From positions 1 through 62,807 of the forward strand of contig JBBEBG010000040.1 of NCBI GenBank assembly GCA_040882465.1: a DNA stretch of 62,807 bases. The letters are read 5' to 3'. A program made the translations under genes and the position numbers. Under the pieces are notes generated by a model, which was not told where the DNA came from, searched no databases, and worked only from the letters and a program-made list of their open reading frames with translations. Within the stretch, counting starts at the first letter, position 1. Every line of letters begins with the position of its first letter. Positions 33,022-58,517 of the stretch are shown one piece after another. The stretch is from Gemmatimonadota bacterium (GTDB lineage: Bacteria > Gemmatimonadota > Gemmatimonadetes > Longimicrobiales > Gaopeijiaceae).

Positions 33022-33556
33022 GACCTTCTCCGCTCCTTCGCCGTGATGCTCTCCTACGGGGTGGGAACGGGGGGCGTGCTTCTCGGCGCGGGACTTCTGT
33101 CGGGCGGATTCCTCGCACGCCGCCGGCTTCCGGATCCGGGAGCCGGTGCCGTCGGGAAGAGGATTCTCGGGTGCTGTGTGCCGCTACTCGGAATCGCCGT
33201 GCTCACCGGCCTCGACAAGCGACTCGAAGCGCTTGCGGTGAGCATCCTGCCGAGCTGGATCTACGGGATGCGAGGCCGAGGGGTCGACGAAAGGGTAGGA
33301 AACCGGCTGGGCGAACATGCACACCTTCCGGACTTCACAAACACCTTGAGGTCCAACAACCGCGCTGCTCGGCCACTTCCGTAGACTTGGGCAGTAGGGC
33401 TCGAACTTACAACCTCCTGGTTAACAGCGCCGCGGGATTCGGCCGATTTTCACGGAAGTCGAGTCACCGCGCCAACATGATCCCTGGATCTCGTGGATGG
33501 TTTTCGGATCATCCACGGGGTTCGGGGATCTCAACATGCACACAAACGTGCACAGC
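33021..33556 (+). repeat. Direct repeat, left copy: ccdA 3' end, tRNA-Asn half and spacer (ghost fragment C)
   Basis: About 536 bp, in the same orientation as 57981-58517 and similar throughout (by eye roughly 85-95 percent). It encodes MLSYGVGTGGVLLGAGLLSGG...SWIYGM of CcdA but the stop codon has changed (TGA to CGA). It continues through a degenerate tRNA-Asn 3' half and a shared spacer with an 8-bp stem (CGTGGATG/CATCCACG). Confidence 0.9.
33386..33427 (-). tRNA. tRNA-Asn 3' half, degenerate remnant
   Basis: On the minus strand: anticodon loop CTGTTAA, stem CCAGG, a T-arm of GTAAG-TTCGAGC-CCTAC with one broken pair, and acceptor TGCCCAAG. The 5' half is absent. Inside the left direct repeat. 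Not a functional tRNA; probably an old integration-site remnant. Confidence 0.65.
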
Positions 33557-33655
33557 TTGCATCCCTCCCCGGGGCCGAAACACCGTGCCGCCTTCCACAA
33601 ACGCCTCTGGAGGCCGTACAATTCCTCAGCCAGCGCTCAACGAGGGGAGGCCGGG

Positions 33656-33916
33656 CTGCCCAAAGTAAGCGAATTCTTCGGCATCTCGATCTACTTGTAT
33701 TGGGGTGATCATGAGCCAGCCCACTTCCATGCGCGGTACGCCGGCTTCAAGGCCAGCATCGCGATCGCAGACCTGACGCTACTCAGGGGCGAGCTTCCGC
33801 CGCGTGCGCTCGGCCTCGTAATGGAGTGGGCAGCGATTCACCAGGGCGATCTACAGGACGCCTGGAGGCGGGTCATCAACCACGAACCACCCGGCTCGAT
33901 CGAGCCGCTCCGGTAG
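33656..33916 (+). CDS. DUF4160-family protein
   Basis: 86 residues: LPKVSEFFGISIYLYWGDHEPAHFHARYAGFKASIAI then LPPRALGLVMEWAAIHQGDLQDAWRRV, the complete DUF4160 pattern with its HFHA motif. The family start is normally MPK; here the codon is CTG at 33656, with a strong GAGGGGAGG 5 nt upstream, so CTG initiation or a mutated start is likely. It sits 17 bp before a DUF2442 gene, a common pairing. Confidence 0.8.
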   Translation: MPKVSEFFGISIYLYWGDHEPAHFHARYAGFKASIAIADLTLLRGELPPRALGLVMEWAAIHQGDLQDAWRRVINHEPPGSIEPLR

Positions 33917-33933
33917 TAAGGGAGGAAACTGAC

Positions 33934-34197
33934 ATGCTTTACGATGTGGTCGCAGTGAAGGCACGAGCCCCCTTTAAGATCTGGATTCGCTTCGAGGACG
34001 GAACCGAGGGAGAGGCGGACCTGTCCGACCTGGCCGGGCGGGGGGTGTTCAAGCGTTGGACCGAAGACCCTTCCGAGTTCGCGCAAGCCACCGTCGATCC
34101 GGAAAGCGGTACAGTGGTGTGGCCGGGCGGTCTCGATGTCGCACCCGACCGCTTGTACCAGGACGTTGTCCGGACACTGACCCGAATTTCCAAGTAG
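33934..34197 (+). CDS. DUF2442-family protein
   Basis: 87 residues: VVAVKARAPFKIWIRFEDGTEGEADLSDLAGRGVFKRW and ATVDPESGTVVWPGGLDVAPDRLY, the full DUF2442 pattern. GGAGG precedes the ATG. DUF4160-DUF2442 pairs are widespread and have been suggested to be toxin-antitoxin-like; that role is not established from sequence. Confidence 0.85.
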   Translation: MLYDVVAVKARAPFKIWIRFEDGTEGEADLSDLAGRGVFKRWTEDPSEFAQATVDPESGTVVWPGGLDVAPDRLYQDVVRTLTRISK

Positions 34198-34502
34198 CAC
34201 GCACTTCAGCGTCCGAAGAGCGCCGAACTTGATCGCCCCGCTCCAGTCGTCGCATCCGCAAAGGTGCGCAAGCATTGGATCCTGACGGACTCGAGCTTCA
34301 CGGTCTCTCCCACATGCAAGAGCCCGGTCGAACGTGCCGGGCGAACATGCACACAAACATGCACACGTAGTGTCTCGGTCCGCAGTCGCGATCCCGTCCG
34401 CCCCGCTCCGGGATCGCGAGGCTCCGCACCGGAGCCGGGAACCTTCGGGACGCCGCACGGATTTTCCTCTGTGCTCTTCATCCCTCCCACCCGACGGGGA
34501 CT
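34198..34502. promoter_or_regulatory. Region upstream of arsM with a repeated CATGCAC motif
   Basis: 305 bp without a gene. At 34345-34366 the 10-mer ACATGCACAC occurs twice, 12 bp apart. Related sequence is in both direct repeats (about 33534 and 58495) and the half-site CATGCAC forms the vapBC operator at 32041. No ArsR-type dyad seen. It may regulate arsM or be repeat debris. Confidence 0.4.
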
Positions 34503-35558
34503 ATGACGACGCTCGTTGAGGATGGTATCGACGCGATACGTGACTACTACGGACGCGTACTGCAGTCCAGCTCGGATCTGAAATCTGGAGCGTGCTGCGC
34601 AGCAGAGACGCTTCCCGACCATCTCAAGGAAGTGGCCGCGACGGTGCACCCCGAGGTCCAGGCCCGCTTCTACGGATGCGGCGCGCCGATCCCTCCCGCG
34701 CTCGACGGTGTGACCGTGCTCGACATCGGGTGCGGGGCGGGGCGCGACGCCTACGTCCTTTCGGCACTTGTCGGAGAGCAAGGGCGCGTGTTCGGACTCG
34801 ACATGACCAAAGGGCAACTCGAGGTGGCGCGGGCCTATCGGGATTGGCACGCGGATCGTTTCGGAATGAGCCAATCGAACGTCCACTTCCTCGATGGACT
34901 CATGGAAGATCTGGCGTCAGCGGGCCTCGAGGACGAATCCATCGACGTCGTCGTATCCAACTGTGTCTTCAACCTCTCGCCCGACAAGCCACGCCTGTTC
35001 GCTGAGGTCTTTCGAACGTTGAAGCCGGGAGGAGAACTCTACTTCTCGGACGTCTTCGCCGACCGGAGGGTCCCCGCTCACCTTCGAGAAGACCCTGTCC
35101 TCCTCGGGGAGTGCCTGGCCGGCGCGATGTATGTGGAGGACTTTCGTCGAATCGTCACCGGTCTTGGCTGCGCCGACGTTCGCCTGGTTCACTCGCGTCC
35201 CGTGGACCTGGGAAATCCGGATTTCGAGCGAAGAGTGGGAATGGTGGGCTTCACCTCCCGCACCTATCGGGCCTTCAAGCTCCCTCTTGAAGATCGATGC
35301 GAGGATTACGGAGAGGTGGCCACATACCTCGGGAGCATTCCGACGCACCCGCACGCCTTCGAGCTCGACGACCACCACCGATTCGAATCGGGCCGGCCGC
35401 TTCGCGTGTGCGGAAACACTGCCGACATGCTTTCCCGGTCCCGATACGCACCGCACTTTCGTGTGGATGGATCCCGAACGACGCACTTCGGGCTCTTCGA
35501 CTGCGGGCCGGCTGCGGCGGTTTCGGGTGCCGGAGGCGGAGGGACGCCCTGCTGTTGA
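34503..35558 (+). CDS. arsM: Arsenite S-adenosylmethionine methyltransferase
   Basis: 351 residues. It methylates trivalent arsenic using SAM in the cytoplasm. SAM motif VLDIGCGAGRDAYVLS; the conserved cysteines of ArsM are present: Cys31/Cys32 (SGACCAAE), the cysteine in VVSNCVFNLSPDKP, and the one in LLGECLAGAMYVEDF. The C-terminus ends GGTPCC, an extra cysteine pair seen in some bacterial ArsM proteins. Convergent with the anti-sigma gene at 35581. No arsR or arsenite pump is next to it. Confidence 0.93.
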   Translation: MTTLVEDGIDAIRDYYGRVLQSSSDLKSGACCAAETLPDHLKEVAATVHPEVQARFYGCGAPIPPALDGVTVLDIGCGAGRDAYVLSALVGEQGRVFGLDMTKGQLEVARAYRDWHADRFGMSQSNVHFLDGLMEDLASAGLEDESIDVVVSNCVFNLSPDKPRLFAEVFRTLKPGGELYFSDVFADRRVPAHLREDPVLLGECLAGAMYVEDFRRIVTGLGCADVRLVHSRPVDLGNPDFERRVGMVGFTSRTYRAFKLPLEDRCEDYGEVATYLGSIPTHPHAFELDDHHRFESGRPLRVCGNTADMLSRSRYAPHFRVDGSRTTHFGLFDCGPAAAVSGAGGGGTPCC

Positions 35559-35580
35559 GCCGGGAGTCATCGCCCTTCCT

Positions 35581-35901
35581 TCACTTGGCCGTGAATCCCT
35601 CCGTCTCGAGAGAGCGCAGAACTCGCTCCTTCAGCCGTTCCGGCGGTGGAGCGTCGTCCGCGACACTCGAAACCGCCTCCAGGAAACTCTTTTCGAAGAC
35701 CAGCATCGGGTAGCAGCGGGCGCAGGTCTCCAGATGAGCCCCCACCCGATCCGCGAGCTCCGGCGGGAGTTCGCCGTCGAGCCACTCATAGACCCGAGAA
35801 GCGGCCTCATGGCAGGTGACCTGGTCGCTGGGGGTTGCGGCCGTCTCCTTACCCTGAAGGAGTCGTTCGAGAATCCGCCGAAGATCGCCGGTCCAGCTCA
35901 T
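35581..35901 (-). CDS. Anti-sigma factor with zinc-binding (ZAS) motif
   Basis: 106 residues, soluble. CHEAASRVYEWLDGELP (Cys30) then HLETCARC (His56, Cys60, Cys63) is the H-x3-C-x2-C zinc anti-sigma motif. Members release the sigma factor on oxidation or similar stress. Overlaps the sigma gene by 4 bp. The last 175 bp are duplicated at 30721-30895. Confidence 0.9.
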   Translation of the reverse strand: MSWTGDLRRILERLLQGKETAATPSDQVTCHEAASRVYEWLDGELPPELADRVGAHLETCARCYPMLVFEKSFLEAVSSVADDAPPPERLKERVLRSLETEGFTAK

Positions 35902-36530
35902 GTCTCATCTCCTTCCCGTTCGGTTCCAGTGCTCCATTCGGGTTGTGCACGTGGAGCGATGACTCCCGACTGCACGGCGTATTCGTAAAGATCCTCCTGG
36001 AGCGCGTGCCGTCCGCGAGACAGCCGACTCTTCACGGTTCCCACGGGTACGTCGAGCACGGTCGAAATCTCGTCGTAGGACAGCTCTTCCAGATCAGAAA
36101 GGACGACCGCGTCGCGATATTCGGCGGGGAGCCCGTCGATGGCGCGCATAATCTCTTCGTCGATCATCCGGGACCAGAACGTGCCCTCCGGGTCCCTTTC
36201 GCCGACCGCGGCGAACACGGTGCCCTCACCCGTCATGGAGTCGGTTCCGTCGATCACTTCCGCGGCGACGATCTCCTCATGGCGCTTCGTTCGTTCGTCG
36301 GCACGCAGGTAAACGTTTCGGCAGATCGTGAAGAGCCAGCTCTTGGCGCGGGTCCCGCGCGCGTATTGATCCCACTTCTGATACGCCTTCAAGTAGGTCT
36401 CCTGCACCAGGTCTTCGGCCTGGTCCGGCTCCTGGGTGAGTCGAAGGGCGAACCGAAGCACCGCTGCCATGTGCGGCAGCGCCTCGTCCTGAAAACTTCT
36501 GTCTTGGTCATCGGCCTTCGTCATGCGCAT
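35898..36530 (-). CDS. ECF sigma-70 family sigma factor
   Basis: 210 residues with region 2 (LRFALRLTQEPDQAEDLVQETYLKAYQKWDQY, AKSWLFTICRNVY) and region 4 (AIDGLPAEYRDAVVLSDLEELSYDEISTVLDVPVGTVKSRLSRGR). It should direct RNA polymerase to stress genes and be held by the ZAS anti-sigma encoded just downstream. Divergent from the secreted protein/cytochrome pair at 36740, which may be among its targets. An ATG two codons later is an alternative start. Confidence 0.93.
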   Translation of the reverse strand: MRMTKADDQDRSFQDEALPHMAAVLRFALRLTQEPDQAEDLVQETYLKAYQKWDQYARGTRAKSWLFTICRNVYLRADERTKRHEEIVAAEVIDGTDSMTGEGTVFAAVGERDPEGTFWSRMIDEEIMRAIDGLPAEYRDAVVLSDLEELSYDEISTVLDVPVGTVKSRLSRGRHALQEDLYEYAVQSGVIAPRAQPEWSTGTEREGDET

Positions 36531-36644
36531 TCCGAGCGGCTCGGTCGACGGGGGCCGTGCAAGGCATCGCCCGCATGAGGGCCCGCACGGGGCCGCCGGT
36601 CACTTCGTGGCTGCCCGACGCTCCAATCCGTGGGAGGGGGCCGC

Positions 36645-36670
36645 GGGTTCCAGGTCAGGTTCTGGAACCC
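36645..36670. promoter_or_regulatory. 9-bp inverted repeat in divergent promoter region
   Basis: GGGTTCCAG (36645-36653) and CTGGAACCC (36662-36670) are perfect complements with an 8-bp spacer, between the sigma gene and the secreted protein gene. A regulator operator is the simplest reading. There is no T-run after it, so it is not a typical terminator. Confidence 0.6.
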
Positions 36671-36739
36671 ATTCCCCGCCCGGCCGGATTGGGGGGGGTG
36701 CAATGGATCGCACGTCACCTCTCAACGGAGCACCGAGCA

Positions 36740-37282
36740 ATGAAGAAGAAGACATCAAAGTCCGTCCCTGCACGGCACGCACGCTTCGGCGTGATGGCCC
36801 TCGCCGCCCTCGCCTTCGCACTGGGCGGTACGGCGTACGCGGAGGCGCAGGTGAGCCCTGCCGCCGCGCAGATGGTGGGTCAGCAGCTTGTGAATGCGTT
36901 CACGCAGGACAGCCCCTTTACGCCGGACGCCCCCGACCATCTCTGGTTCGCAAATGGCGACGGCACCTACCTCTTCCTCCACTTCAACGCGGCCCTCGCG
37001 GATGCATCCGGACCGATGTTCACGGGGTGGGCCGTGCCGGGCCGGTGGTGCGCGGAGGATCAGCCGGGTCCTGAGTTCACGCACTTCCACCGCACGGCGA
37101 GGGTGGGGGCTTGGGATGCTGGACACGGCGGAGGGACCCCGGGAGAGACGGGCTACTGGCTGAAGCACATCGCGGTTCAGCGTATGGAGATGCCGGCGAT
37201 GATGGGCATGCCGGCGCGGACCATCGAGCCCGGCACGGATACGATGTTCATGCCGACGCAGGCCCCCAGGTGCGGGGACTGA
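36740..37282 (+). CDS. Secreted hypothetical protein
   Basis: 180 residues with signal peptide (MALAALAFALGGTAYAEAQ). The mature part is LVNAFTQDSPFTPDAPDHLWFANGDGTYLFLHF, GWAVPGRWCAEDQPGPEFTHFHRTARVGAWDAGHGGGTPGETGYWLKHIAV and a Met-rich MEMPAMMGMPARTI. Histidine- and methionine-rich patches suggest metal binding, but I do not recognise the family. Five bases before the cytochrome gene. Confidence 0.75.
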   Translation: MKKKTSKSVPARHARFGVMALAALAFALGGTAYAEAQVSPAAAQMVGQQLVNAFTQDSPFTPDAPDHLWFANGDGTYLFLHFNAALADASGPMFTGWAVPGRWCAEDQPGPEFTHFHRTARVGAWDAGHGGGTPGETGYWLKHIAVQRMEMPAMMGMPARTIEPGTDTMFMPTQAPRCGD

Positions 37283-37287
37283 CCTCG

Positions 37288-37743
37288 ATGCGTGCGCCAC
37301 GGTGCCTCCCCGTTCGGATTCTCGCGGCGGTTTCGCTCGTGCCTGCCGGGTGTAGGGGCGGCGCGGCCGAGGACGGAACGTTCGCGGAGTCGGACTCGGC
37401 GGAGTTGGTGCCGAGGATGAATTCGATCGTCGCGTCGGCGCCCGATGCCGCCCCGGGAGCTCCCGGGGCGGCGCTGTTCGGCCGTATCGGGTGCAACGGT
37501 TGCCACATGATCGCCGGCGTCGGAGGCATGGTGGGACCGGACCTCTCCGCCGTGGGTTCCAGGCCCTCACGAGACCCGGCGCGATGGCCCACGACGGAGG
37601 ACTACGTCCGCGCTTCACTCAGGAATCCCGCAGACTTCGTCGTGGACGGGTACAGTCCCGCGATGCCTCCTCCGGATCAACTCGGTATCACCGTCGAGGA
37701 CATCGAGATTCTCACGCGCTACTTGCTTGCGCTGACGGAGTGA
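37288..37743 (+). CDS. Cytochrome c, lipoprotein-like
   Basis: 151 residues. Signal-like N-terminus with lipobox (LVPAGC22); single haem c site CNGCH (Cys69, Cys72, His73), a downstream GPDLSAVGSR, and likely Met ligand in GYSPAMPPP. Small mono-haem cytochrome of the class I kind; electron carrier outside the membrane. In an operon with the secreted protein 5 bp upstream. Confidence 0.88.
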   Translation: MRAPRCLPVRILAAVSLVPAGCRGGAAEDGTFAESDSAELVPRMNSIVASAPDAAPGAPGAALFGRIGCNGCHMIAGVGGMVGPDLSAVGSRPSRDPARWPTTEDYVRASLRNPADFVVDGYSPAMPPPDQLGITVEDIEILTRYLLALTE

Positions 37744-37801
37744 GAGGAGGGTGGCGACCCGAGGTGATCCCACCCTGTTCAGGAGATCCGGGTGGCCGCC
37801 C

Positions 37802-38035
37802 TCACTCCGGCGAAGCCGCGGATGGGCATCTCCGGTCCCCGTAGGAGCAGAAGACGCAGCAGTCACCGGGTTTCGGCCGGACGCGGGCGCGGCACGCGGG
37901 GCAGTCCCACTGCCAGAGGCACGCATCGGTTGGGATCGCCAGGTGCGCCGCCGACCCGCAGGACGGGCAGGTGATTACACCGACCAGGCCACCGGACCCG
38001 TCCATGGCCGCGCCGCCGGGCGCGGAGACGTCCAT
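37802..38035 (-). CDS. GDCCVxC-domain protein
   Basis: 77 residues. ITCPSCGSAAHLAIPTDACLWQWDCPACRARVRPKPGDCCVFCSYGDRRCP: two zinc-type Cys pairs and the signature GDCCVFCSYG. In some relatives one of these cysteines is selenocysteine; here all are Cys codons. Members often sit beside mercury resistance genes. The ATG overlaps the stop of the DUF2911 gene by one base (TGATG), so the two are translationally coupled. Confidence 0.85.
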   Translation of the reverse strand: MDVSAPGGAAMDGSGGLVGVITCPSCGSAAHLAIPTDACLWQWDCPACRARVRPKPGDCCVFCSYGDRRCPSAASPE

Positions 38036-38601
38036 CAGTCCGGTCGCCGCACGCTGACCGGAATCCGAATCTCGCCCCAGTGGAGCGCGAGGATGGCGGC
38101 GTCGGCTGTCGCAAAGGGGAAGTAGAAGGCGAGCGTCTCCATGTGATCCGCCGCCTCCGGCCGGACCCGTAGGCGAAGGGCCTCGTTTCCCTCCGGATAG
38201 GGGCGGTGCGGCACATCCCAGGAGCGACTGAAGATCAGCGTCCACTCCGCGGGACCGGGGATGGCCCAGAGGCTGTACCGCCCTGCCGGAAGAACTTGCC
38301 CCTCGATCAGGACGTCTTCATCCACCTCGAGGCGGGTCGCCTCGTCCGCGCCGGGGTTCCAGATCGAGTCCCAGGGAACGAGCGCGCCGAAGAGGTCTCG
38401 TCCCCTCGCCACCGGCCGGTTGTAGACCACGGTCAGTTCCGTCGTCCCCATCCGCTGCGTGACCCGCGCGGGCTGACTAACTCGATAGTCGGCGTAAGGC
38501 GTCTGCGGCACGATGGGCGGGTCCTGTGCAATGAGGTGTCCCGGAAAGACGGTCAGGGTAACGGCAAGGGCGAGGGTGCAGATCTGAGCGCGACTGGGCA
38601 T
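38035..38601 (-). CDS. DUF2911 secreted protein
   Basis: 188 residues. Signal peptide ending HLIAQ; the DUF2911 pattern follows: ELTVVYNRPVARGRDLFGALVPWDSIWNPGADEATRLEVDEDVLIEGQVLPAGRYSLWAIPGPAEWTLIFSRSW. Complete for the family. Function unknown; the family is common in Gemmatimonadota, Bacteroidota and relatives. Confidence 0.9.
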   Translation of the reverse strand: MPSRAQICTLALAVTLTVFPGHLIAQDPPIVPQTPYADYRVSQPARVTQRMGTTELTVVYNRPVARGRDLFGALVPWDSIWNPGADEATRLEVDEDVLIEGQVLPAGRYSLWAIPGPAEWTLIFSRSWDVPHRPYPEGNEALRLRVRPEAADHMETLAFYFPFATADAAILALHWGEIRIPVSVRRPD

Positions 38602-38720
38602 CTGGCCTCCTGAGTGGCGTGGTGAAATGGCCTAAGCGAGGACGGGTGAGGCCCCTCGATCGGGACCTCACCCATCCCCACAACGTTCCCGCTATTCCCG
38701 GCGAATCCCGCTCCCTTTCC

Positions 38721-38760
38721 AGTTGGGACGGATCGAGTCCAGTTGAGACGGATCGAGCGC
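38721..38760. repeat. 20-bp tandem repeat, two units
   Basis: AGTTGGGACGGATCGAGTCC is followed at once by a second copy with two or three changes. It lies between the DUF2911 and DsrE genes. No function suggested. Confidence 0.8.
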
Positions 38761-38763
38761 CGA

Positions 38764-39120
38764 TCAGAAGGTCACGACCTCGTACCCGTCGGCCACGCGC
38801 TGCCGTAGGCTCGGATGCCCCTGGAACTCGCTCAGGAAGCGAACTCCCGCGTCCCTCACCCCATCCTTCACATCGAAGGCGTTGACGCAGAACTCACACG
38901 CGCCGGCGACCCGATCCTTCACGCCGAGAAACACCTTGTGGAGCTTGTGCTCGGGATTGTTGAGCTCGGGGATCCAGGTCACCCCGGCTCCATCGAAGAC
39001 GATCTCGACGTCGTCACCCGCATCTTTCGCTTCTCGCGCGAGCGTCAGTCCGTTCAAGACGCGCGCGAGGTCGGATCGGGCATCGTTGCCCGCCAGCACT
39101 ACCACGGAAACCTTTGCCAT
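38764..39120 (-). CDS. DsrE/DsrF-like sulfur relay family protein
   Basis: 118 residues: AKVSVVVLAGNDARSDLARVLNGLTLAREAKDAGDDVEIVFDGAGVTWIPELNN and a Cys-rich turn GACEFCVNAFDVKDGV. The DsrE fold carries sulfur or persulfide groups in several pathways; the two cysteines here fit that but the partner is unknown. Stands alone. Confidence 0.85.
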   Translation of the reverse strand: MAKVSVVVLAGNDARSDLARVLNGLTLAREAKDAGDDVEIVFDGAGVTWIPELNNPEHKLHKVFLGVKDRVAGACEFCVNAFDVKDGVRDAGVRFLSEFQGHPSLRQRVADGYEVVTF

Positions 39121-39253
39121 CGGAAACCTCCGGAAGTCGTCTTTCGATCGGATGAATCAGTGCGAATCGAACTGCATCTCTCCAATCCGCGCGGATCTCC
39201 AGGGGTTCCATCGGCCGCGCGCGCCGCAGGCGGACGCGCCAGGATTCGGCGGA

Positions 39254-39787
39254 TCACTCGATCGGATAGGGCTCCACGCGTGCGTCGGCGGGCTTCACGA
39301 GGCGGACCTCATCGAAGGGCTCCCGAAACGAGATTTCGGAGACCCATGCCTCGTTCCGGAATGCGCCTTCCTGCCCATCCTGATAGGCATATCCCCGGAA
39401 ACGAGTGGGCACGGTCAATCCGTCGACCGTCACGTAGTCCTCGTAAAAGAAGAACGTACCGGATTCGGGAGGCTCCGGTCCGTCGGGGGTGGGGACGTAA
39501 GGCCGTCCGTAGGTGACGGTGTAGACGATCGCGGCCACGCGACCCGTGTCGGGGTCGAGGTAGAGGAGATAGACGTCGCCGGACGACTCCCCGACTCCCT
39601 GGTCGTAGTACGCCATGACCCGGTCGTGAGGAACTCCTTGCAATGCCTCTGGAGGAGGGGTGCGGAATCGTATACCGGGATCCGCCATCACGAACGGAAT
39701 CGACTGGAAGTAGAACCCGGTGAGGGCCCAGAACCGCGGATTCGGCTGACGGCGCTCCCCGGGCCTGATCCAAGCTTCCGTGCCGTC
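39254..39787 (-). pseudogene. DUF6503-like protein, 5'-truncated
   Basis: The frame opens after a TAG at 39788 and reads DGTEAWIRPGERRQPNPRFWALTGFYFQSIPFVMADPGIRF, then VPHDRVMAYYDQGVGESSGDVYLLYLDPDTGRVAAIVYTVTYG to the stop. This is the C-terminal two thirds of a DUF6503-type secreted protein; the start and signal peptide are missing. The first ATG in frame (39691) would leave out conserved residues. The 3' end is duplicated at 32905-33021. Confidence 0.65.
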
Positions 39788-39841
39788 CTATGCGAAGCGC
39801 GCGCTCCCTTCCGTTGGTTGGGTTGTGATCGTTTGGAAAGG

Positions 39842-40261
39842 TCAAACTGGCTCGGGCACCGGAGCGTCGTGGGCGAACAACGCCGCCGCCAGCACCGCCG
39901 GATCGGGCCACTCCCCGCTCGCGATGAGGCGCCCGTTCACGACCACCGCATTCACCTTGAGCCCGCCGATCGTCCGCAGCCACTCCCGAGGTGGCACCCG
40001 GTACCGCCGGAAGTCCCGGAGGAGAATCGGAAGGAGCGAGATCCAGTTTCTCGGGTCCACCACACGGAGATCGACGGATTCGCCGAGTCGCTTTCGGACC
40101 TCGCGGTAGACGGATCCCGCCTTCTCCATCTCGCGGCGCCGTTCGGGGAAGCAGGTCTCCCCGTTCCAGCTTAGGAAGTCGCCTTCGAGGCGTCCGCAGC
40201 ACCCGCTGGACGACATCTGCTGCTCCCACTCCCGAACCAGAATCACGCTGGGCCGCATCAT
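39842..40261 (-). CDS. Thioredoxin-like-fold hypothetical protein with Cys-Cys motif
   Basis: 139 residues. N-terminal strand with SVILVREW, a Cys pair SGCCGRLEGDF, another Cys in GETCFPERRR, then VDLRVVDPRNWISLLPILLRDFRRYRVPPREWLRTIGGLKVNAVVVNGRLIASGEWP. The strand-helix order and paired cysteines suggest a thioredoxin-like redox or metal-binding protein; I do not recognise a named family. Its ATG overlaps the stop of the hydrolase-OsmC gene by 4 bp. Confidence 0.65.
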   Translation of the reverse strand: MMRPSVILVREWEQQMSSSGCCGRLEGDFLSWNGETCFPERRREMEKAGSVYREVRKRLGESVDLRVVDPRNWISLLPILLRDFRRYRVPPREWLRTIGGLKVNAVVVNGRLIASGEWPDPAVLAAALFAHDAPVPEPV

Positions 40262-41547: not shown

Positions 41548-41729
41548 GACGGTCTCACCAGAGAAATCGGTGAATGGGCGGCGTGGTTCCATGCGGGGTG
41601 CCGGCTCGGCCCGGCAGGGGTGGGCCGCCCGGAACCACACGGCGGGCCCGAGGATTTCCGGTGCGGGGCTTCGCCACACGAGCGGTGCGTTGCCCGACTT
41701 CCGGTCCAACCCCGCTTCGGAGCCTCGAA

Positions 41730-48599: not shown

Positions 48600-48714
48600 A
48601 GTTAGAGCGCTTCAGCGCGAAGCGCTCGGCGGTTCGCGGAAAGCCGGTGAGATTCGGTCGAGCGCTCCTGAACGGAAATAGCAGTGCGTGTCATCTCAGC
48701 AACGGAGGTGGGAA

Positions 48715-49170
48715 ATGCGTGTCGTCTCAGTGGCTTTGATCGTGGGGGGACTTCTGGCCGGGCTGGTCCCGGTGACCGCACCAGCGCAGGAGCGGGTAGA
48801 TCGAGTCTCGGCTCAGAACTTCCGGACAACGGTGAGTCAGCTGGAACGGGCGCTCGAAAGCCGGGCGTTCATGATCGTGGCGCAAGTGGATCACCAGAAC
48901 ATGCTTCGCATGGTCGGCGCATCCACAGGCGGCTCCCTCACCATCGAGTTCGGCAACCCCGCCATGATGCGAGAGAACTTGCCCGCACACCCCGAGATCG
49001 GACTCGAAATGCCGATGCGGTTCTATGTGTGGGAGCGCGCGGACGGCAGGACCGTCGTGAGCTATCGTCGTCCCTCGGCCGCGTTCGCCGGCTACCCGCC
49101 AGAACTTCGCATGATGGGGGAAATGATGGACAGCACGTTCACCCAGATCGCCGCGGATGCGACCAGGTAG
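48715..49170 (+). CDS. DUF302-type periplasmic protein in mer operon
   Basis: 151 residues. Signal peptide (VALIVGGLLAGLVPVTAPAQ); mature part has the DUF302 pattern TTVSQLERALESRAFMIVAQVDHQNMLRMVGASTGGSLTIEFGNPAMMRENLPAHPEIGLEMPMRFYVWERADGRTVVSY. Members are thought to bind small ligands. Lies between merP and merA, an unusual position. The start at 48715 follows a GGAGGTGGG stretch. Confidence 0.85.
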   Translation: MRVVSVALIVGGLLAGLVPVTAPAQERVDRVSAQNFRTTVSQLERALESRAFMIVAQVDHQNMLRMVGASTGGSLTIEFGNPAMMRENLPAHPEIGLEMPMRFYVWERADGRTVVSYRRPSAAFAGYPPELRMMGEMMDSTFTQIAADATR

Positions 49171-49188
49171 CCCGTCCGGAAGACCGCC

Positions 49189-50025: not shown

Positions 50026-50039
50026 GCGAGAGGCACCGA

Positions 50040-51704: not shown

Positions 51705-52252
51705 GGTGCAAGCAGTTCAGACGTACCTTGAAATCCGATCCGGGGGGCTGGTGTCGTGAGGCGCCCCTGGATTCGGCGCTGGAAATTCAATTCGGGCTCA
51801 AGTCGCGAAGGCCACGTCAGGATGCGTAGTCTAGGGAGGAATGATGCGAGAGTCGGGGACCCAAAGGGCTATGGGTTGAAGCGAGAGGCACGCCCGGAGT
51901 CGGAAGCGAGGGTGCCGTGCGGGGTCGCGGGTCGTGGGACGCCGCATGGAACCCGGAGGCGGCTCGCCCCGAGGAGAAGGCCAGGAACCCAGACCGTAGT
52001 GCCGGACATTCTTATTCGAAGACGAGGCGTGAATGCCCGTGTTGGTAAGGCTGTCGTGGAGGAACTGGTGCTTTCGCTGGAGCCTCTGATCGGGTCTCTC
52101 GTACACCGGTTCAGATGTTCGGTGAAGTATTCTCACCCCGCATCCTGGAGGCGTAGAGGAACGGAGGAGTCCTCGTGATCCGTGGCGCTTCGCGGGACGG
52201 AGCCCAGGCGCGATGAGCAGCGCCGCCGGAATCACGATTCGAGTGTCCCGCC
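51705..52252. other. Gene-free stretch after merA
   Basis: 548 bp between merA and the NmrA gene. Several open frames cross it but none reads as a protein. No terminator with a clear T-run, RNA or repeat was recognised. Confidence 0.4.
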
Positions 52253-53203
52253 TCAATCCGGAATGGGAATCCTCGACGCGTTTCGGCCAAGCCATTCCTC
52301 AAAGGTCTGGAGGTCGGAATTCAGGCGCCGGCTTTCGGCCAGATCGCGGTGCCCCCGGTAAATCTCCTCGAAATCGCGCTTGAACTGAAACATGTTTCCG
52401 ACGTCTTCCGCCCCGGGGAAGTCGAATCGCCGATACGCGTCGGGCGAGACGTCCACGTAGGTCACGGTCTGTCCGAGAGCGCGGGTCAGCGCTTCCGCGA
52501 TCTCGCTTCCGCTGAGGTGGTCGCCGGCGACGCCTACCTCCTTCCCCACGTATTCGTCCGCACGCCGGAAGATACCCAGGGCGCAGCGTCCGATGTCCTC
52601 GGCGGCGATCATGGGCATCTTCGCCGCTCCGAGAGGAAAGACCATGACGAGGTCTCCCCCCTCGCCTCGCTGCGGGCCCCAACCGAAGGTGATCAAGTTT
52701 TCGTAGTACGCCGAGGTGAGGAGGAAGGTGGTCGGCACGCCGAGCGCGGTGAAGCGGGCGTCCGCCTCGGCCTTGGCGTCGAAGTGAGCGACCTTGTACG
52801 CATCCTGGAGGGTGGGCATCCGGTCGTCGTCGAGCGGCACGAAATGCCGGGTGTCTTCGAAGGTGGACCAGATCGCGTGCTCAACACCTGCTGCGTGGCA
52901 GGCCTCGGCCAGTCGGCGTCCCTGATCCGTCTCCTTCGCGCCCGAGAAGTGTTCCCAGAAGTTGGTGAGGCAGAACGCACCGTGTGCGCCGCGAAAGGCC
53001 TCCGCGAGAGACCCCGGATCGTCCAGGTCCGCGAACCGGATCTCCGCGCCCGCCTCGGCGAGCGTTTGAGCCGCCTCCGAGTCAGGCCGGCGGGTCAGCG
53101 CGCGAAGCGCAAACCGGCCTTCCGGATCCGACAACACGGCGCGAGCCAGCCCACCCCCTTGGGCCCCCGTCGCGCCGACGACCGCGATGACTTTCTGGGA
53201 CAT
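52253..53203 (-). CDS. NmrA-family NAD(P)-binding protein
   Basis: 316 residues. Rossmann start KVIAVVGATGAQGGGLARAVL (GxxGxxG), then FALRALTRRPDSEAAQTLAEAGAEIRFADLDDPGSLAEAF and SAYYENLITFGWGPQ. NmrA-like proteins bind NAD(P) and often act as redox sensors rather than enzymes; the usual catalytic Tyr-Lys pair is not evident. Monocistronic. Confidence 0.9.
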   Translation of the reverse strand: MSQKVIAVVGATGAQGGGLARAVLSDPEGRFALRALTRRPDSEAAQTLAEAGAEIRFADLDDPGSLAEAFRGAHGAFCLTNFWEHFSGAKETDQGRRLAEACHAAGVEHAIWSTFEDTRHFVPLDDDRMPTLQDAYKVAHFDAKAEADARFTALGVPTTFLLTSAYYENLITFGWGPQRGEGGDLVMVFPLGAAKMPMIAAEDIGRCALGIFRRADEYVGKEVGVAGDHLSGSEIAEALTRALGQTVTYVDVSPDAYRRFDFPGAEDVGNMFQFKRDFEEIYRGHRDLAESRRLNSDLQTFEEWLGRNASRIPIPD

Positions 53204-53721
53204 TTCCGAAGACTCCTTCCTACAATGGTGAGAAACTCAGAGCTTTAACGATGGGCCGGAGGCCGTGCGTCTGCAAGGCCCGCAATCGGGACCCCTGCCC
53301 CTGAGCAATCCGGTGTCGAACGCCTGACCGGTGGCGCACGCCCCTGGCCTCGAATCCGTCGGAATCGCTGTGTCGCTCCCGATGCGACGCCGGATTCGGC
53401 CGTGACCCCCGAACGGCCCGGTCCCTCAGTCAGCTCGCGGCTGCCGTGCAACGACTTCACGCCATCCGCTGGTAGAGAGCCCGGCGCTCGTCCCGCCCGA
53501 TTGACGAGCGAGCGGACTCATGAAGGGGTGGCGTCGGAACCCCAGGGCGTCGCCGGCGGATTGGAGAAGCGAAGTGGAATCGCAGGGTGGCGCTCCTGAT
53601 GCCGCGGGAACTCGGAGGAGTTGGGGATGGCCAAAGCGATCTGGCGGGGATACGTCGTCGCCGACAGCGACACGTTGAGCCTCCGATACCTTGGGGCAAT
53701 ACGGCGGAGCGTGGCGGTGGA
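53204..53721. other. Gene-free stretch before DUF3179 gene
   Basis: 518 bp with no supported gene. It includes the divergent promoters of the NmrA and DUF3179 genes. No clear operator or RNA element recognised. Confidence 0.4.
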
Positions 53722-54756
53722 ATGGTGACTCGGTCCGTCCCCGTTGCCGTAGCTTTGGCCACCGCGGTCCCCTGGTTGGGCGCTGGGTTCGTTCACGCGC
53801 AGGCACCGAGCGAGGTCCGCGCGCTGCCTCTGACGGAAACCCGGTACGCGCTCGGAGACCAGATTTCGGCCTACCGGGACTTCATGAGGTCCGGAGGGCC
53901 ACCGCCCGACGGCATCCCGTCCATTGACTCCCCGCGCTTCATACGTGCCGATGAGGCGCAGCTGGCTCCCGAGGACATGGTCATTGGGATCCTACTGAAC
54001 GGCGAAGCGCGGGCCTATCCGCAAGCCATCATGGTCCATCACGAAATCGTGAACGATCGGGTCGGCGGGACCAACGTGGCGGTCACCTACTGCCCTCTCA
54101 CGGCGACCGCTCAAGGATTCCTGCGCGGGAATTCTGCGCTCGGTGTGTCCGGCCAGCTGCTGAACAGCAACCTGGTCATGTACGATCGTGACTCGGGGAG
54201 CTACATCTCCCAGATCGCCGCTACCGGCCTGTCGGGCCCGTACGAGGGACGCGGCCTCACGGAGGTCGGCCTCGTCTGGACGACCTGGGAACGTTGGCGA
54301 TCCGCGCACCCGGATACCCAGGTGCTGAGTGATCGGACCGGTTACCTCCGCAACTACTCGCGCGACCCGTACGGCTCCTACAATCCCCCCGATGGATACT
54401 ACGTCGAGGACGGTACCGTATTCCCCGTCATGCACCGGTCTGTTCGGCTCCACGCCAAGGAGATGGTGGTGGGCGCGCGCACCTCCTCGGGAAGCGCCTA
54501 CTTCGTCCTTCGGGACCTCGCCTCGGCTCGAGTACTCGGGACGCCGAGTTTCATCGCGGTGTACGACCGCGCCCTACATACGGCCCACATCTACGAACGG
54601 TCGGGAGCGGATCTCCCGGTCGCCCTGCCGAACGGAGCGGTCCGCATGGGCGACGAGGAATTCGCTCCCGACTCGCTTCCCTTGAATCGAACCGTCGCCG
54701 TCCAAGCTTTCTTCTTCGCCTGGCATGCCTTTTTTCCGGATAGTGAGACCCCCTGA
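53722..54756 (+). CDS. DUF3179-family secreted protein
   Basis: 344 residues. Signal peptide ending FVHAQA; DUF3179 core: PEDMVIGILLNGEARAYPQAIMVHHEIVNDRVGGTNVAVTYCPLTATAQGF, SNLVMYDRDSGSYISQI, and TQVLSDRTGYLRNYSRDPYGSY. The YCPLT cysteine is conserved in the family. Function unknown; these often occur near metal or sulfur redox genes. The following gene overlaps its end. Confidence 0.9.
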   Translation: MVTRSVPVAVALATAVPWLGAGFVHAQAPSEVRALPLTETRYALGDQISAYRDFMRSGGPPPDGIPSIDSPRFIRADEAQLAPEDMVIGILLNGEARAYPQAIMVHHEIVNDRVGGTNVAVTYCPLTATAQGFLRGNSALGVSGQLLNSNLVMYDRDSGSYISQIAATGLSGPYEGRGLTEVGLVWTTWERWRSAHPDTQVLSDRTGYLRNYSRDPYGSYNPPDGYYVEDGTVFPVMHRSVRLHAKEMVVGARTSSGSAYFVLRDLASARVLGTPSFIAVYDRALHTAHIYERSGADLPVALPNGAVRMGDEEFAPDSLPLNRTVAVQAFFFAWHAFFPDSETP

Positions 54757-55390
54757 GGCGCCCATGGAAGGCCAGCGCGGCGGCGTGGCCCCAGTGCCGA
54801 TGAAGAGGCGGATCACAGCGGAGGCCGAACGTCCCGCGCCCCTTCGAACCCTCGCGGCCCTACTCCATGTGCGCAGTTTTCGCCGGACGGCCATCCTTCT
54901 CGGAATCGCATATTTCCTCCCCCTCCAGCTCGCACTGGGATTGCTGTCGCGGGGTGGACGCGAAGCCACGATTCTTTTGGCGCCCTGGACCCGCATGTTC
55001 GAGCGCACGAGTGCGTTCAGCTTCGAAGCCGTCGCTCAGCTCACCGTCCCGGGCGTGACCATTCTCTTTTCGCCCCTGAACATCCTCGTGACCGGTGCGT
55101 TGGCGGGCCTCGCGGGCCTGAATCTCGCCATGACGCTGACACTCCTCCGCGATCCTCGCGCTTGCGACTTGAGGAGTGTCCCGACCGTCCTGGGGGCTCT
55201 CCCACCGCTGCTCGCCGGGGGTGCATGCTGCGCGCCGACTCTCCTTCTTGTCCTCGGGATACAGGCGTCGACACTCATCATTGCGCTCTCACAGATCTTG
55301 ATCCCAGGCTCCCTCGTTCTACTTTTCGGGACGCTCCTCTGGACGCTTCGGCGCATGGACGTCCGCCATCTTCCGACCTCAGTGCCATGA
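54725..55390 (+). CDS. Membrane protein with GACCAP motif, possible metal transporter
   Basis: Up to 221 residues (ATGs at residues 14 and 26 are alternative starts). Four or five hydrophobic segments; the fourth contains GGACCAPTLLLVLGI with Cys168-Cys169, close to the CCxGP pattern of MerT and related Hg transporters. Another Cys lies just before (RDPRACDLR). Overlaps the DUF3179 gene by 32 bp. No named family recognised; mercury or other soft-metal transport is an inference. Confidence 0.7.
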   Translation: MPFFRIVRPPEAPMEGQRGGVAPVPMKRRITAEAERPAPLRTLAALLHVRSFRRTAILLGIAYFLPLQLALGLLSRGGREATILLAPWTRMFERTSAFSFEAVAQLTVPGVTILFSPLNILVTGALAGLAGLNLAMTLTLLRDPRACDLRSVPTVLGALPPLLAGGACCAPTLLLVLGIQASTLIIALSQILIPGSLVLLFGTLLWTLRRMDVRHLPTSVP

Positions 55391-55393
55391 GCC

Positions 55394-55990
55394 ATGGCAG
55401 ACATCCTCGCGGGCTGGATCGAGGGCTCGGGGCCCTGGGGACACATGATCGCGCTCGTCGGAATGACGGCCGTAGCCGTTCTTCCACTACCGGCGGAAGC
55501 ACCGGCCCTTGTCCTGGGAGCGCTCTTCGGTCCCATCCTCGGATCAGCTCTCGTCTGGACGGGAGCCATGTTGGGAGCGGCCATCAGCTTCGAGTTGGCC
55601 CGCACCTTTGGGAGGCCGGCCGCCAAGCGATGGCTGTCGCCGAGGTCCTTGGGCCGCGCGGACGATGTGGCCCGCCGGGCGGGAGTCGCCGGCCTTCTCC
55701 TTCTCAGGTTGATGCCGTGGGTGGGATTCACCGCGCTGAACTGGGCCCTTGGGCTCAGCGACCTTCCGCGCTCCCGCTTCCTCTGGACCACGGCTCTCGG
55801 AATCTTGCCCGGAGTGGCCCTGTTTACGGGTGCGGGCGCCGGATTTCGCGGACTCCTCCCAGATTTCGAAGCCACCCACTTCGGGGGACTCGTCCTGATC
55901 GTCGCGGTGGGGTGGGCAGTCAGCCTCTGGGTTCGTCGCAAACGGACTGCGGCCAGCGGTCGGTCTGCTCCCCAGGACGAGGACCAGTGA
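55394..55990 (+). CDS. VTT-domain (TVP38/TMEM64, DedA-like) membrane protein
   Basis: 198 residues. LPAEAPALVLGALFGPILGSALVWTGAMLGAAISFELARTFGR and RLMPWVGFTALNWALGLSDLPRSRFLWTTALGILPGVALFTGAG are the VTT-domain hallmarks. Members act in lipid movement or, in some cases, selenite/mercury uptake. Starts 3 bp after the GACCAP protein, so likely one operon. Confidence 0.88.
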   Translation: MADILAGWIEGSGPWGHMIALVGMTAVAVLPLPAEAPALVLGALFGPILGSALVWTGAMLGAAISFELARTFGRPAAKRWLSPRSLGRADDVARRAGVAGLLLLRLMPWVGFTALNWALGLSDLPRSRFLWTTALGILPGVALFTGAGAGFRGLLPDFEATHFGGLVLIVAVGWAVSLWVRRKRTAASGRSAPQDEDQ

Positions 55991-56240
55991 TGGTCCGTTC
56001 GAACCGATTCGCTGGCCACCAGCGCGGAGCGCGTCTATGAGACCGGCGTCGCCGACCCGCGATGGGAGGATGGCACGAACCCGGCGCTCTTGCCGGATCA
56101 ATCCCGTCTCTATGGGGCGGAATTGACGGTGGCAACGCACCGGATGGTCGCCTCCCTCTTCGCAAGGGGTCGACGGTCGAGCGCCGAGTGACTCCCCGGA
56201 CCCAGGGCCGGTCAAGGAAGAAGGCCTCGGGTGGCCCAGC

Positions 56241-56504
56241 GTGACGGGTCGGACCCTTCTCGTCGAGCTCTGCCGGCGCAGCGTACTCCTGCGCGCGCTC
56301 AAGTTTGCGCTGGTCGTGGGACCCCTACTGATCGCCATCAATCATGGGGATGTCATGGTGCAGGGCGGTCTCCCGCCAGTCGTGTATCTGAAAATGGCGC
56401 TCACGTTCCTCGTGCCCTTCTTCGTGTCGGCGTTGTCGAGCGCCGGCGCCGCGCTGGCCTCGGGCCCCCGGCGAGGCCTTCCCGCCCCTCCGCAGGATCC
56501 CTGA
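56241..56504 (+). CDS. nrtS: NrtS-like nitrate/nitrite transporter family protein
   Basis: 87 residues, two hydrophobic segments: ALKFALVVGPLLIAINHGDVMVQ and YLKMALTFLVPFFVSALSSAGAAL. The pattern LIAINHGD...KxALTFLVPFxVS fits the small NrtS family. It is preceded by about 250 bp (55991-56240) with no other gene seen. Confidence 0.75.
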   Translation: MTGRTLLVELCRRSVLLRALKFALVVGPLLIAINHGDVMVQGGLPPVVYLKMALTFLVPFFVSALSSAGAALASGPRRGLPAPPQDP

Positions 56505-56588
56505 CCTGGAACCTGAGGCGGCCCTCACGGATTGGGGGGGCGGCTCCAGTGCGTGCAGGTCGAAATCTCCCGTAGATGAGGAGGACCC

Positions 56589-57047
56589 GTGAACATTCAG
56601 TATGGAAGAGCCGTGGTCGGCGGACTCGTCGGAACCGTGGTCATGACCGCCGTCGGGCTCTGGATCGCGCCCATGATGGGGATGCCCGCCATGAATCCGG
56701 CAGAAATGCTGGCCGGCGCGATGGGCGGAATGCTCGCCCTCGGGTGGGCGGCCCACTTCATGATCGGAACGGTCCTCGCGCTCATCTACGCTGTCGTGGC
56801 CCCGTCTCTTCCCGGCGCGCCCGTGGTTCGGGGCGCTCTCTACGGCGTCGCGCCTTTCCTCGTCGCGCAGATCGCCGTCATGCCGATGATGGGGATGCCC
56901 GTCTTCTCGGGCTCCATGACCATGGCCATGGGGAGCCTCATCGGTCACCTCATCTACGGAGGAGTGGTCGGCGGCATCTACGGGCCCGTTCCGGTGCGGT
57001 CCGGAGCGGCCGTGCATGCGTCACCCGCGGCACCGCGGCATTCCTGA
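56589..57047 (+). CDS. DUF6789-like membrane protein
   Basis: 152 residues, about four hydrophobic helices rich in Gly and Met: RAVVGGLVGTVVMTAVGLWIAPMMGMPAMNPAEMLA, GWAAHFMIGTVLALIYAVV, IGHLIYGGVVGGIYG. The GxVGTVxMT start and AHFxIG are typical of DUF6789. Methionine-rich loops could bind copper; not established. Confidence 0.75.
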   Translation: MNIQYGRAVVGGLVGTVVMTAVGLWIAPMMGMPAMNPAEMLAGAMGGMLALGWAAHFMIGTVLALIYAVVAPSLPGAPVVRGALYGVAPFLVAQIAVMPMMGMPVFSGSMTMAMGSLIGHLIYGGVVGGIYGPVPVRSGAAVHASPAAPRHS

Positions 57048-57085
57048 GTCGTCCACGTCCACTATCAACGGAGCATCCATCCCTC

Positions 57086-57523
57086 ATGAGCCCTTTCATG
57101 CGACATCCCTTCAAGGCACCGGCACTTTTCGGCGCGCTCCTCACGGCGGCTCTCATCACCGCGCCCGGGATCTACGCGCAAACGACGACGGCGCATGTGA
57201 AGGAGGATTTCACCGAGGCTCGATTCGCCGAGCTTCAGGCGCAGGGCGCTTTCATCCTCGTGGACATCTTCGCGGACTGGTGCCCGGACTGCGCCCAGCA
57301 GCAGCGGGTGCTCGCCGCCTACCGCGAGGCCCATCCGGCGGTCCCGCTTCACACCCTCGTGGTCAACTTTGACACGCAGAAGGACGTGGTGACCCGCTTC
57401 CGTGCGCCGCGGCAGTCCACCCTCATCCTCTTCCGGGGGAGCGAGCAGCTCTGGTTCACCGTCGCGGAGACACGGGAAGAGGTCATCGTTCAGGCGTTGA
57501 ATGACGGATTCGCGCGGCGGTGA
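57086..57523 (+). CDS. Periplasmic thioredoxin-family protein
   Basis: 145 residues. Signal peptide ending GIYAQ; thioredoxin fold with FADWCPDCAQQQ (Cys66, Cys69) and a cis-Pro region APRQSTLILFRG. With the CcdA-type membrane protein overlapping its end (GTGA), it forms a pair that would carry reducing power from the cytoplasm to the periplasm. Confidence 0.92.
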   Translation: MSPFMRHPFKAPALFGALLTAALITAPGIYAQTTTAHVKEDFTEARFAELQAQGAFILVDIFADWCPDCAQQQRVLAAYREAHPAVPLHTLVVNFDTQKDVVTRFRAPRQSTLILFRGSEQLWFTVAETREEVIVQALNDGFARR

Positions 57524-58233
57524 CCCTCGAACTGTCGGCTATCCCGATCGCCTTCTTCGCGGGGGTAGTCGGCGTCCTGTCCCCCTGCGTGTGGCCGCTG
57601 GTGCCGATCGTCATGGCGTCGGCGGCCACAGGGGGGCGGCGCGGGCCGTACTTCCTCGCGGCCGGACTGGCGCTCTCGTTCGCCGTCGCGGGCAGCCTTC
57701 TCGTCTTCCTTCTTGTGAGCACGGGCACCGATCCGGAGTTCTTCCGCTACATCGCCGCCTCCCTCCTGATCGCGATGGGTGCGCTCCTCGTCGTTCAGAA
57801 GCTCGGTGATTGGGCCTCGACGGGACTGTCGCGTCTCACCGCGGGGCTGAATCTCGGCCGTCGTACGAACCCGGCACCTGGCTCTGGAGAGTTCGGGGTC
57901 GGACTGTTACTCGGGGTCGTCTGGCTCCCATGCGTGGGCCCGACCCTCGGCGTGGCGATCGCACTCGCGTCATTCGGGGAGGACCTTCTCCGCTCCTTCG
58001 CGGTGATGCTCTCCTACGGGGTGGGAACCGGAGGCGTGCTACTCGGCGCGGGACTTCTGTCGGGCGGGTTTCTGGCGCGACGGCGACTTCTCGGACCGGG
58101 AGCCGGCGCGATCGGGAAGAAGATACTCGGGTGGTGCGTGCTCCTTCTCGGGATCGCCGTGCTCACCGGGCTCGACAAGCGGCTGGAGGCGCTCGCGGTG
58201 AACCTGCTGCCGAGCTGGATCTACGGGATGTGA
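57520..58233 (+). CDS. ccdA: CcdA/DsbD-type membrane thiol transporter
   Basis: 237 residues with six hydrophobic helices. Cysteines in the two pseudo-symmetric helices: Cys23 (LSPCVWPLVP) and Cys138 (WLPCVGPTLG), the CcdA/DsbD pattern. GTG start overlaps the thioredoxin stop by 4 bp. The last third (from 57981) is part of a direct repeat whose other copy at 33021 is a truncated version. Confidence 0.93.
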   Translation: MTLELSAIPIAFFAGVVGVLSPCVWPLVPIVMASAATGGRRGPYFLAAGLALSFAVAGSLLVFLLVSTGTDPEFFRYIAASLLIAMGALLVVQKLGDWASTGLSRLTAGLNLGRRTNPAPGSGEFGVGLLLGVVWLPCVGPTLGVAIALASFGEDLLRSFAVMLSYGVGTGGVLLGAGLLSGGFLARRRLLGPGAGAIGKKILGWCVLLLGIAVLTGLDKRLEALAVNLLPSWIYGM

Positions 58234-58517
58234 AGCCGAGGGGTCGACGAAAGGGTCGTGAACCGGCCGGCCCATCATGTCACACCTTCCGGACTTCACA
58301 AACTACTTGAGGTCCAACAACCGCGCTGTTGAGCCACTTCTGCAGACTGGGGCGGTAGGGCTCGAACCTACAACCTCCTGGTTAACAGCGCCGCGGGATT
58401 CGGGCGATTTTCACGAAAGTCGAGTCACCGCGCCAACATGATCCCTGGATCTCGTGGATGGTTTTCGGATCATCCACGGGGTTCGGGGATCTCAACATGC
58501 ACACAAACGTGCACAGT
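57981..58517 (+). repeat. Direct repeat, right copy: ccdA 3' end, tRNA-Asn half and spacer
   Basis: Same orientation as 33021-33556; the two copies are offset by 24,960 bp at the left end. Contains the intact ccdA stop, a well-paired tRNA-Asn 3' half, and the shared spacer ending near the CATGCACACAAAC motif. The right copy looks ancestral because its ccdA and tRNA portions are undamaged. Confidence 0.9.
58347..58388 (-). tRNA. tRNA-Asn 3' half
   Basis: On the minus strand: anticodon loop CTGTTAA (GTT), 3' stem CCAGG, a perfect T-arm GTAGG-TTCGAGC-CCTAC, and acceptor strand CGCCCCA plus G. The D-arm and 5' acceptor are absent (upstream is GCGGCG, which cannot pair), so this is a half tRNA, as left by integrases that use the tRNA 3' half as attachment site. 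Confidence 0.75.

Follow-up and report, generated by a model that had tools for sequence, protein, structure and literature searches.

Accretion of cis-mobilizable elements (CIMEs) at the 3' ends of tRNA genes or other genes has been reviewed for the elements of Streptococcus related to ICESt1 (PMC5704250). At ssrA of Dehalococcoides, many tandem islands are marked by displaced 3' ends of the gene, and 15 of them are without an integration module and have been proposed to be CIMEs (PMC3146451). Among the 3919 islands collected by Islander, which demands an integrase in every unit, there are only 4 tandems of three or more (PMC4383910), and the tycheposons and recurring tRNA-fragment islands of aquatic bacteria are tRNA-anchored cargo islands (PMC10872708). 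We found nothing specific on comparable arrays in Gemmatimonadota in the open-access literature searched. Here we analysed a locus on contig C40 (JBBEBG010000040.1) of a Gemmatimonadota bacterium whose genome comprises 3.53 Mb in 41 contigs. The stretch of DNA examined, C40:1-62807 (the window, 62,807 nucleotides), contains two direct repeats that bracket 25 kb and carry the 3' half of a tRNA-Asn(GTT) gene, which were first noted in a preliminary description made from the letters of the window. In all probability, these repeats are attachment-site (att) remnants of integrase-less elements that were stacked in tandem at one tRNA-Asn(GTT) gene. The array comprises about five units, and its functional end is the intact tRNA-Asn gene outside the window.

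Results

The two copies of the direct repeat (33019-33560 and 57979-58520) are identical at 489 of 544 positions (90%, E about 0). Each contains, on the minus strand, a 44-bp segment of tRNA-Asn that extends from the anticodon loop (CTGTTAA) as far as the 3' end; the 5' half is missing, and neither the 33-kb nor the 58-kb copy matches the tRNA gene beyond the anticodon loop. The preliminary description had recognized this arrangement, along with a perfect right and a worn left copy, and both observations were confirmed by comparison with the intact gene (Table 1). The 542-bp repeat reaches beyond the tRNA part, including the 3' third of a ccdA/DsbD-like gene on one side and an arm of about 130 bp on the other. 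No complete tRNA was detected in the window with ARAGORN, and an Rfam scan of the window gave no match. The complete gene, for which a search had been suggested, was found at C40:64455-64530 (minus strand), and its 3' half is the same. It lies 1.65 kb past the end of the window and 6 kb to the right of the right repeat, and the next gene after it encodes a semialdehyde dehydrogenase (asd by sequence). At the relatives' loci examined (L020-L047, 1.5 kb on each side), none had asd beside tRNA-Asn. A third tRNA-Asn half, at C40:62896-62922, has only 27 bp of the tRNA part and a full right arm, the copy as a whole spanning C40:62896-63047; this partial copy and the intact gene are both within 1.8 kb of the window's right end. 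The displaced 3' fragments all sit 3' of the intact tDNA and in the same orientation, which is the configuration required of an island by Islander-type rules. A second tRNA-Asn isogene, at C13:30555, has a different 3' half and was rejected as the source of the att sites. Such an isogene had been named in advance as evidence against an attachment site, but is irrelevant here, since it is the cognate gene that ends this array.

Immediately to the right of every displaced half, starting where tRNA identity stops, we found about 130 bp, designated the P arm, that are 97-98% alike in three copies (33428-33560 compared with 58389-58520 and C40:62921-63047). In the P arm, a 24-bp palindrome precedes AACATGCACACAAACGTGCACA, which consists of two direct repeats at a 12-bp pitch (paired AACATGCACA). 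Another arm, P', occurs to the left of the 33.4-kb half, the 58.4-kb half and the intact tRNA, and carries two motifs: AACATGCACAC, which is mutated in the 58-kb copy, and CAAACTACTTGAGGTCC, which has two mismatches in the 33-kb copy. The 11-mer AACATGCACAC occurs seven times in the 3.53-Mb genome, each time on the plus strand and within the arms of the array; its reversed control was not present in the genome, and 0.2-0.6 occurrences were expected. The arm-site pair was also found only in the array within this genome. Shuffled sequences gave 0 expected matches for the tRNA-half pattern and for the P' arm pattern, and the arm motif with one mismatch was found 6 times against 0.17 expected. A chance origin of these sites is therefore excluded. 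Considering the established anatomy of attP, the motifs would have the properties of integrase arm-type sites. Displaced halves, arms and the cognate tRNA together support the earlier proposal that this part of the tRNA gene served as an attachment site of the tyrosine-integrase type.

From left to right, the array consists of E1, E2a, E2b, E3, E4 and the intact tRNA-Asn. E1 ends at 33.43 kb, and the left repeat is its right end. E2a (0.9 kb) spans 33.43-34.35 kb, E2b (24 kb) 34.36-58.39 kb, E3 58.39 to about 62.92 kb, crossing a scaffold gap, and E4 62.92-64.49 kb. A profile search of C40:1-138000 revealed no additional units on either side, whether to the left of 33 kb or beyond the tRNA on the right. 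At the boundary of E2a and E2b the att core is deleted (34344-34366), owing to a deletion between two AACATGCACAC repeats, and the P' arm now runs straight into the end of a P arm. The fused remnant is 91% identical over 75 bp to C40:64321-64395, the P' arm of E4, and matches the P-arm ends at 21 of 22 positions. Because of this junction, the bracketed 25 kb correspond to two units.

The preliminary description had taken the bracketed DNA for a former integrative element of 25 kb with the repeats as its ends. The att remnants uphold the integrative origin, and the repeats are indeed att sites, but they are longer than the tRNA part, further sites are present at 34280-34366 and to the right of the window, and instead of a single island there are two units within an array of about five. 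We thus consider it highly unlikely that one integrative and conjugative element (ICE) or prophage integrated once at tRNA-Asn, leaving the repeats as attL and attR, and later lost its integrase. Although two near-full att copies bracket the region, and C-terminal remnants of integrases adjoin the same arm type in relatives, the intact tRNA must form an end of the last element and is found another 6 kb to the right, and the right repeat is a displaced half and not a regenerated gene. A third P arm is also present at 62.9 kb, the 25 kb themselves contain a deleted att (34.34 kb), and no conjugation or phage gene was present among the open reading frames (ORFs) scanned. A single element is contradicted by the additional P arms and by where the intact tRNA lies, provided that the scaffold was joined correctly at 62.8 kb.

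A segmental duplication, in which ordinary recombination copied the 542-bp stretch together with its tRNA half and no site-specific integration took place, would be consistent with the presence of coding sequence (the 3' end of ccdA) outside any att site in the repeat, and with the other short duplicates (30720/35581 and 32893/39206). Three fragments in E1 (at 30720, 32893 and 33019) are collinear with E2b, and the abutment of the last two indicates an internal deletion in E1. The ccdA copies of E1 and E2b display 2, 5 and 27 differences at the first, second and third codon positions, respectively. This bias indicates that both copies were under selection while they diverged, and therefore that the two elements are related but arrived separately; the copies diverged as working genes, not after local copying. 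Moreover, the third P arm has only the att-side 150 bp in common with the repeats and nothing of ccdA, the identity to the tRNA gene stops in the anticodon loop, and the arm sites, which this genome has nowhere but in the array, turn up again in other genera next to tRNAs and integrases. A duplication is thus even less probable than a single element. The least probable explanation is that arms and palindrome represent a module with a regulatory or transcription-terminator role that is repeated near tRNA genes, with the halves as decayed tRNA genes, for even though the P-arm hairpin is strong (z -5.6) and terminator-like hairpins with T-runs occur in several P arms elsewhere, the halves break at the anticodon loop, tRNA sequence never continues on the P side, arm-type pairs stand directly downstream of integrase stop codons in relatives, and the integration pattern predicts the entire geometry of the array.

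We then turn to the recombinases. As the preliminary description had stated, there is no integrase in the window, and a six-frame search of the whole genome with PF00589 gave nine tyrosine-recombinase matches, none of them in C40:1-138000. C40 has a single match, to a 300-aa Xer-like protein at 190 kb; four of the nine adjoin other tRNAs (Leu-CAA, Gly-CCC, Leu-TAA and Gly-GCC). With PF00239, four serine-recombinase matches were obtained genome-wide, all on contigs other than C40. None of the approximately five units harbours an integrase of its own. In E2b, a Pfam scan and the PF00589 and PF00239 searches revealed no recombinase, relaxase or phage gene, and no relaxase, type IV secretion, conjugation or virion family was found among the main ORFs scanned, smaller ORFs being outside the scan. 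The integrase beside tRNA-Gly(GCC) on contig C35 was considered but does not stand out as the helper, its downstream repeats being of the GGGACACA type and not of the AACATGCACA type. It is related (57%) to an integrase at tRNA-Asn in genome G088.

The arms were also found in relatives. The P' arm is present beside the intact tRNA-Asn of another genus (G109, Baikal-deep-G153). When two mismatches or fewer were allowed, the arm-pair motif gave about 40 matches in 20 of the 121 genomes of the family (reversed control, 8); exact matches numbered 19 in 154 genomes of the order (control, 0). BLAST identified a tRNA gene or half within about 300 bp at 8 of the 16 exact sites outside the source genome. 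Many of these arm pairs stand beside displaced halves of tRNA-Asn (G056), Ile (G119), Ala (G100 and G119) and Val (G118, and G051 in the looser search), and beside intact tRNA-Asn (G056) and tRNA-Pro (G100 and G101). Those of the P arms that come from G056, G118 and G119 can be aligned with the P arms of the array with hardly a gap (111 columns, 80% mean column identity), and the tRNA halves at these arms differ (Asn, Val, Ala, Ile/Arg). At G056:C95, G100:C28 and G101:C411, an arm pair directly follows the C-terminus of a tyrosine integrase beside an intact tRNA (Asn, Pro and Pro, respectively). These integrase copies are truncated and are related to the one at the tRNA-Asn of G088. Judged by eye, integrases of the G088 type often have their 3' end close to a tRNA and a short direct repeat past the stop codon. 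Sequence relationships point to the G088-related family as the best lead to an enzyme that may have built the array in trans.

Further loci with this arm type were noted. Arms adjoin tRNA 5' halves (Arg, Val and Ala), or precede an intact tRNA-Pro after an integrase gene (L064, L083 in G051, L087/L129 and L113 in G100, L118 in G119 and L121 in G118), and insertion at the 5' side of a tRNA seems to occur as well. At G118:C1:898-1637 (L131), two displaced tRNA-Ile 3' halves are separated by only about 0.65 kb, within which arm sites lie, and this locus is a near-empty unit of a small tandem array. In genera g2 and g3 of the family, some genomes have 20-30 matches to the tRNA-linked tyrosine-integrase family, which is unusually many. 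Three pattern scans of viral contigs for the P' and P arms gave five loci, all of which were rejected as chance matches without a tRNA or a second arm.

Several points weigh against stacking at the tRNA-Asn gene. The genome collections searched contained no intact integrase with this arm type, and consequently the cognate enzyme is deduced from remnants and homologues only. The path from the right end of E3 through E4 to the tRNA crosses a scaffold gap of 10 N (C40:62808-62817), at which the window ends, so that the adjacency rests on the assembler. The gap is located between E3 and the last att site with long runs of G and C on both sides, and is likely an assembly artefact. The E3/E4 site has only the 27 bp of the tRNA half and no P' arm, and the left boundary of E1 was not found. 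An excision product, circle or empty site was not seen. Finally, homologues of the cargo of E2a and E4 were identified among the 154 genomes, none of them between such arms, and thus the units have not been caught moving.

Discussion

We propose that a tyrosine integrase supplied in trans would bind the arm sites and cross over in the anticodon loop of tRNA-Asn. Each unit ends in a P arm, made up of the palindrome and a pair of arm-type sites, where it faces away from the tRNA, and in a P' arm joined to a replacement tRNA 3' half where it faces the tRNA. The displaced halves with their polarity, the conserved arms, the intact tRNA at the end of the array and the lack of an integrase were observed, and the enzyme, the order of arrival and mobility are inferred. 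An incoming unit would enter at the intact tRNA and supply a fresh 3' half, shifting the prior half and its unit leftward. E1 would have arrived first, followed by E2a and E2b (since fused), E3 and, most recently, E4. E1 and E2b may be diverged relatives that evolved apart before meeting, with E1 losing most of its interior afterwards.

As in CIMEs, the units retain both attachment sites and lack integration and transfer genes, and newcomers would enter at the functional site with older elements left in tandem (PMC5704250). Core and both arms are retained at 33.4 kb, at 58.4 kb and at the intact tRNA, with the exceptions of the core lost at 34.34 kb and that truncated at 62.9 kb. The lack of integration and transfer genes was judged from genome-wide searches for recombinases and, for transfer, from the main ORFs. 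A search for a co-resident partner element found none. On the other hand, the array has no adjacent helper ICE or integrative and mobilizable element, includes units of about 0.9 and 1.6 kb, resides in a Gemmatimonadota host, and its mobilization is a proposal. The islands at ssrA of Dehalococcoides are likewise in tandem with displaced 3' ends and include members without an integration module (PMC3146451), but they target a transfer-messenger RNA gene with a serine recombinase, whereas in the array the target is the tRNA-Asn anticodon loop and the arm sites are of the kind typical for tyrosine integrases. With Islander-type islands the array shares regenerated tDNA and a displaced fragment at the ends, crossover in the anticodon loop and the 3' fragment class (PMC4383910). 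Unlike those islands, it has no integrase in the interval and would go unlisted by Islander because an integrase is demanded per unit. Tycheposons also differ in carrying their own tyrosine recombinase, which the PF00589 search did not reveal in the units of the array. The array is a clear new example of a known pile-up of mobile DNA and not a new mechanism. It would best be filed beside CIMEs and tandem accretion, its mobility being a proposal.

The array also resembles integron cassette arrays, in that small units without a recombinase lie in one orientation behind one fixed site and a recombinase would act in trans. The differences are that its site is an att in which arm sites accompany a tRNA core, that its units reach 24 kb, and that there is no integron integrase at the array. 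A broader, rather doubtful possibility is that Gemmatimonadota possess a cassette-like tRNA platform, in which integrase-less units of <1 kb to 24 kb, all bearing a conserved palindrome and paired arm sites, would be captured serially at tRNA genes by integrases in trans, with one arm family serving several tRNAs. The unit of inheritance would then be the arm module rather than the integrase, a situation similar to integrons but on tRNA att sites.

The locus provides a base-level map of how accessory genes (arsenic, mercury, redox, toxin-antitoxin-like and BlaR-like) accumulate at one tRNA of a phylum that has been little studied and is mostly uncultured. Island finders relying on integrases overlook this class. 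Paired AACRTGCACA at a 12-bp pitch beside a tRNA half can serve as a tag for locating such sites in other genomes where no integrase survives.

Palindrome, cargo and neighbouring genes

Over nine alignable P arms, 82% of the cells in the 24-bp stem pair, compared with 76% in shuffled sequences, and the covariation score is 0.279 versus 0.182, with 0 of 500 shuffles as high and a clear drop on sliding. The structure having been derived from one of the aligned sequences, which are related, and two of five measures not exceeding shuffles, conserved pairing of the palindrome is suggestive only. The palindrome by the arm-site pair is kept across genera (the window, G118, G119 and G056) with some compensatory changes, and the arm-pair sites of G047, G051 and G126 have unrelated strong hairpins at its position. 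A universal requirement for the palindrome was rejected, as fold z-scores are near 0 in some arms of G119 and G056. Candidate roles are those of a terminator, a folded strand or a dimer site bound by a directionality factor.

In terms of cargo, Pfam identified in E2b an arsM-like methyltransferase, an ECF sigma factor with a zf-HC2 anti-sigma factor, cytochrome c, DUF2911, OsmC-hydrolase, Glu_synthase-like and HNH proteins, merR/merT/HMA/merA-like genes, DUF3179, VTT and thioredoxin-like proteins, and ccdA. E4 has a single DUF6503 gene. With a GC content of 61.5%, E2a and E4 are set apart from the flanks (65.8-67.2%), and E2b (65.9%) is not. The coordinates of the features are listed in Table 1.

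Table 1. Features of the tRNA-Asn array in the window, in order of position
Feature	Position	Strand	Remarks
Anti-sigma gene fragment	30720-30895	-	97% to 35581-35756
Fragment homologous to 39206-39333	32893-33020	-	E1; abuts ccdA fragment
ccdA 3' end, truncated, right end of E1	33019-33269	+	90% to 57979-58230
P' arm, right end of E1	33298-33385	+	AACATGCACAC at 33314, CAAACACCTTGAGGTCC; aligns with 58258-58346, C40:64370-64456 and the tRNA-Asn flank of G109
Displaced tRNA-Asn(GTT) 3' half, left copy	33384-33427	-	41/44 compared with intact gene
P arm, left end of E2a	33428-33560	+	Palindrome 33479-33530; arm-site pair 33533-33554
E2a cargo: DUF4160 and DUF2442	33497-34197	+	Pfam; pair resembles toxin-antitoxin accessory modules
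Fused arms, P' of E2a and outer P-arm end	34280-34366	+	Joined at AACATGCACAC; att core deleted
E2b	34366-58346	.	Pfam gene list, no recombinase
ccdA/DsbD-like gene, intact	57520-58233		3' third lies in the right repeat
P' arm, right end of E2b	58258-58346	+	Carries CAAACTACTTGAGGTCC
Displaced tRNA-Asn(GTT) 3' half, right copy	58345-58388	-	44/44 compared with intact gene
P arm, left end of E3	58389-58520	+	Palindrome 58440-58491; arm-site pair 58494-58515
E3 cargo: BlaI-like repressor, BlaR1/M56 peptidase, 428-aa protein without Pfam match	58696-62601	+	Pfam

Just to the left of the array (24038-26839, 27961-29941 and 32075-32706) are genes for an MmeI-like restriction-modification protein, two AbiEii-like nucleotidyltransferases and a VapBC-like pair. 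These genes are possibly older units with eroded ends.

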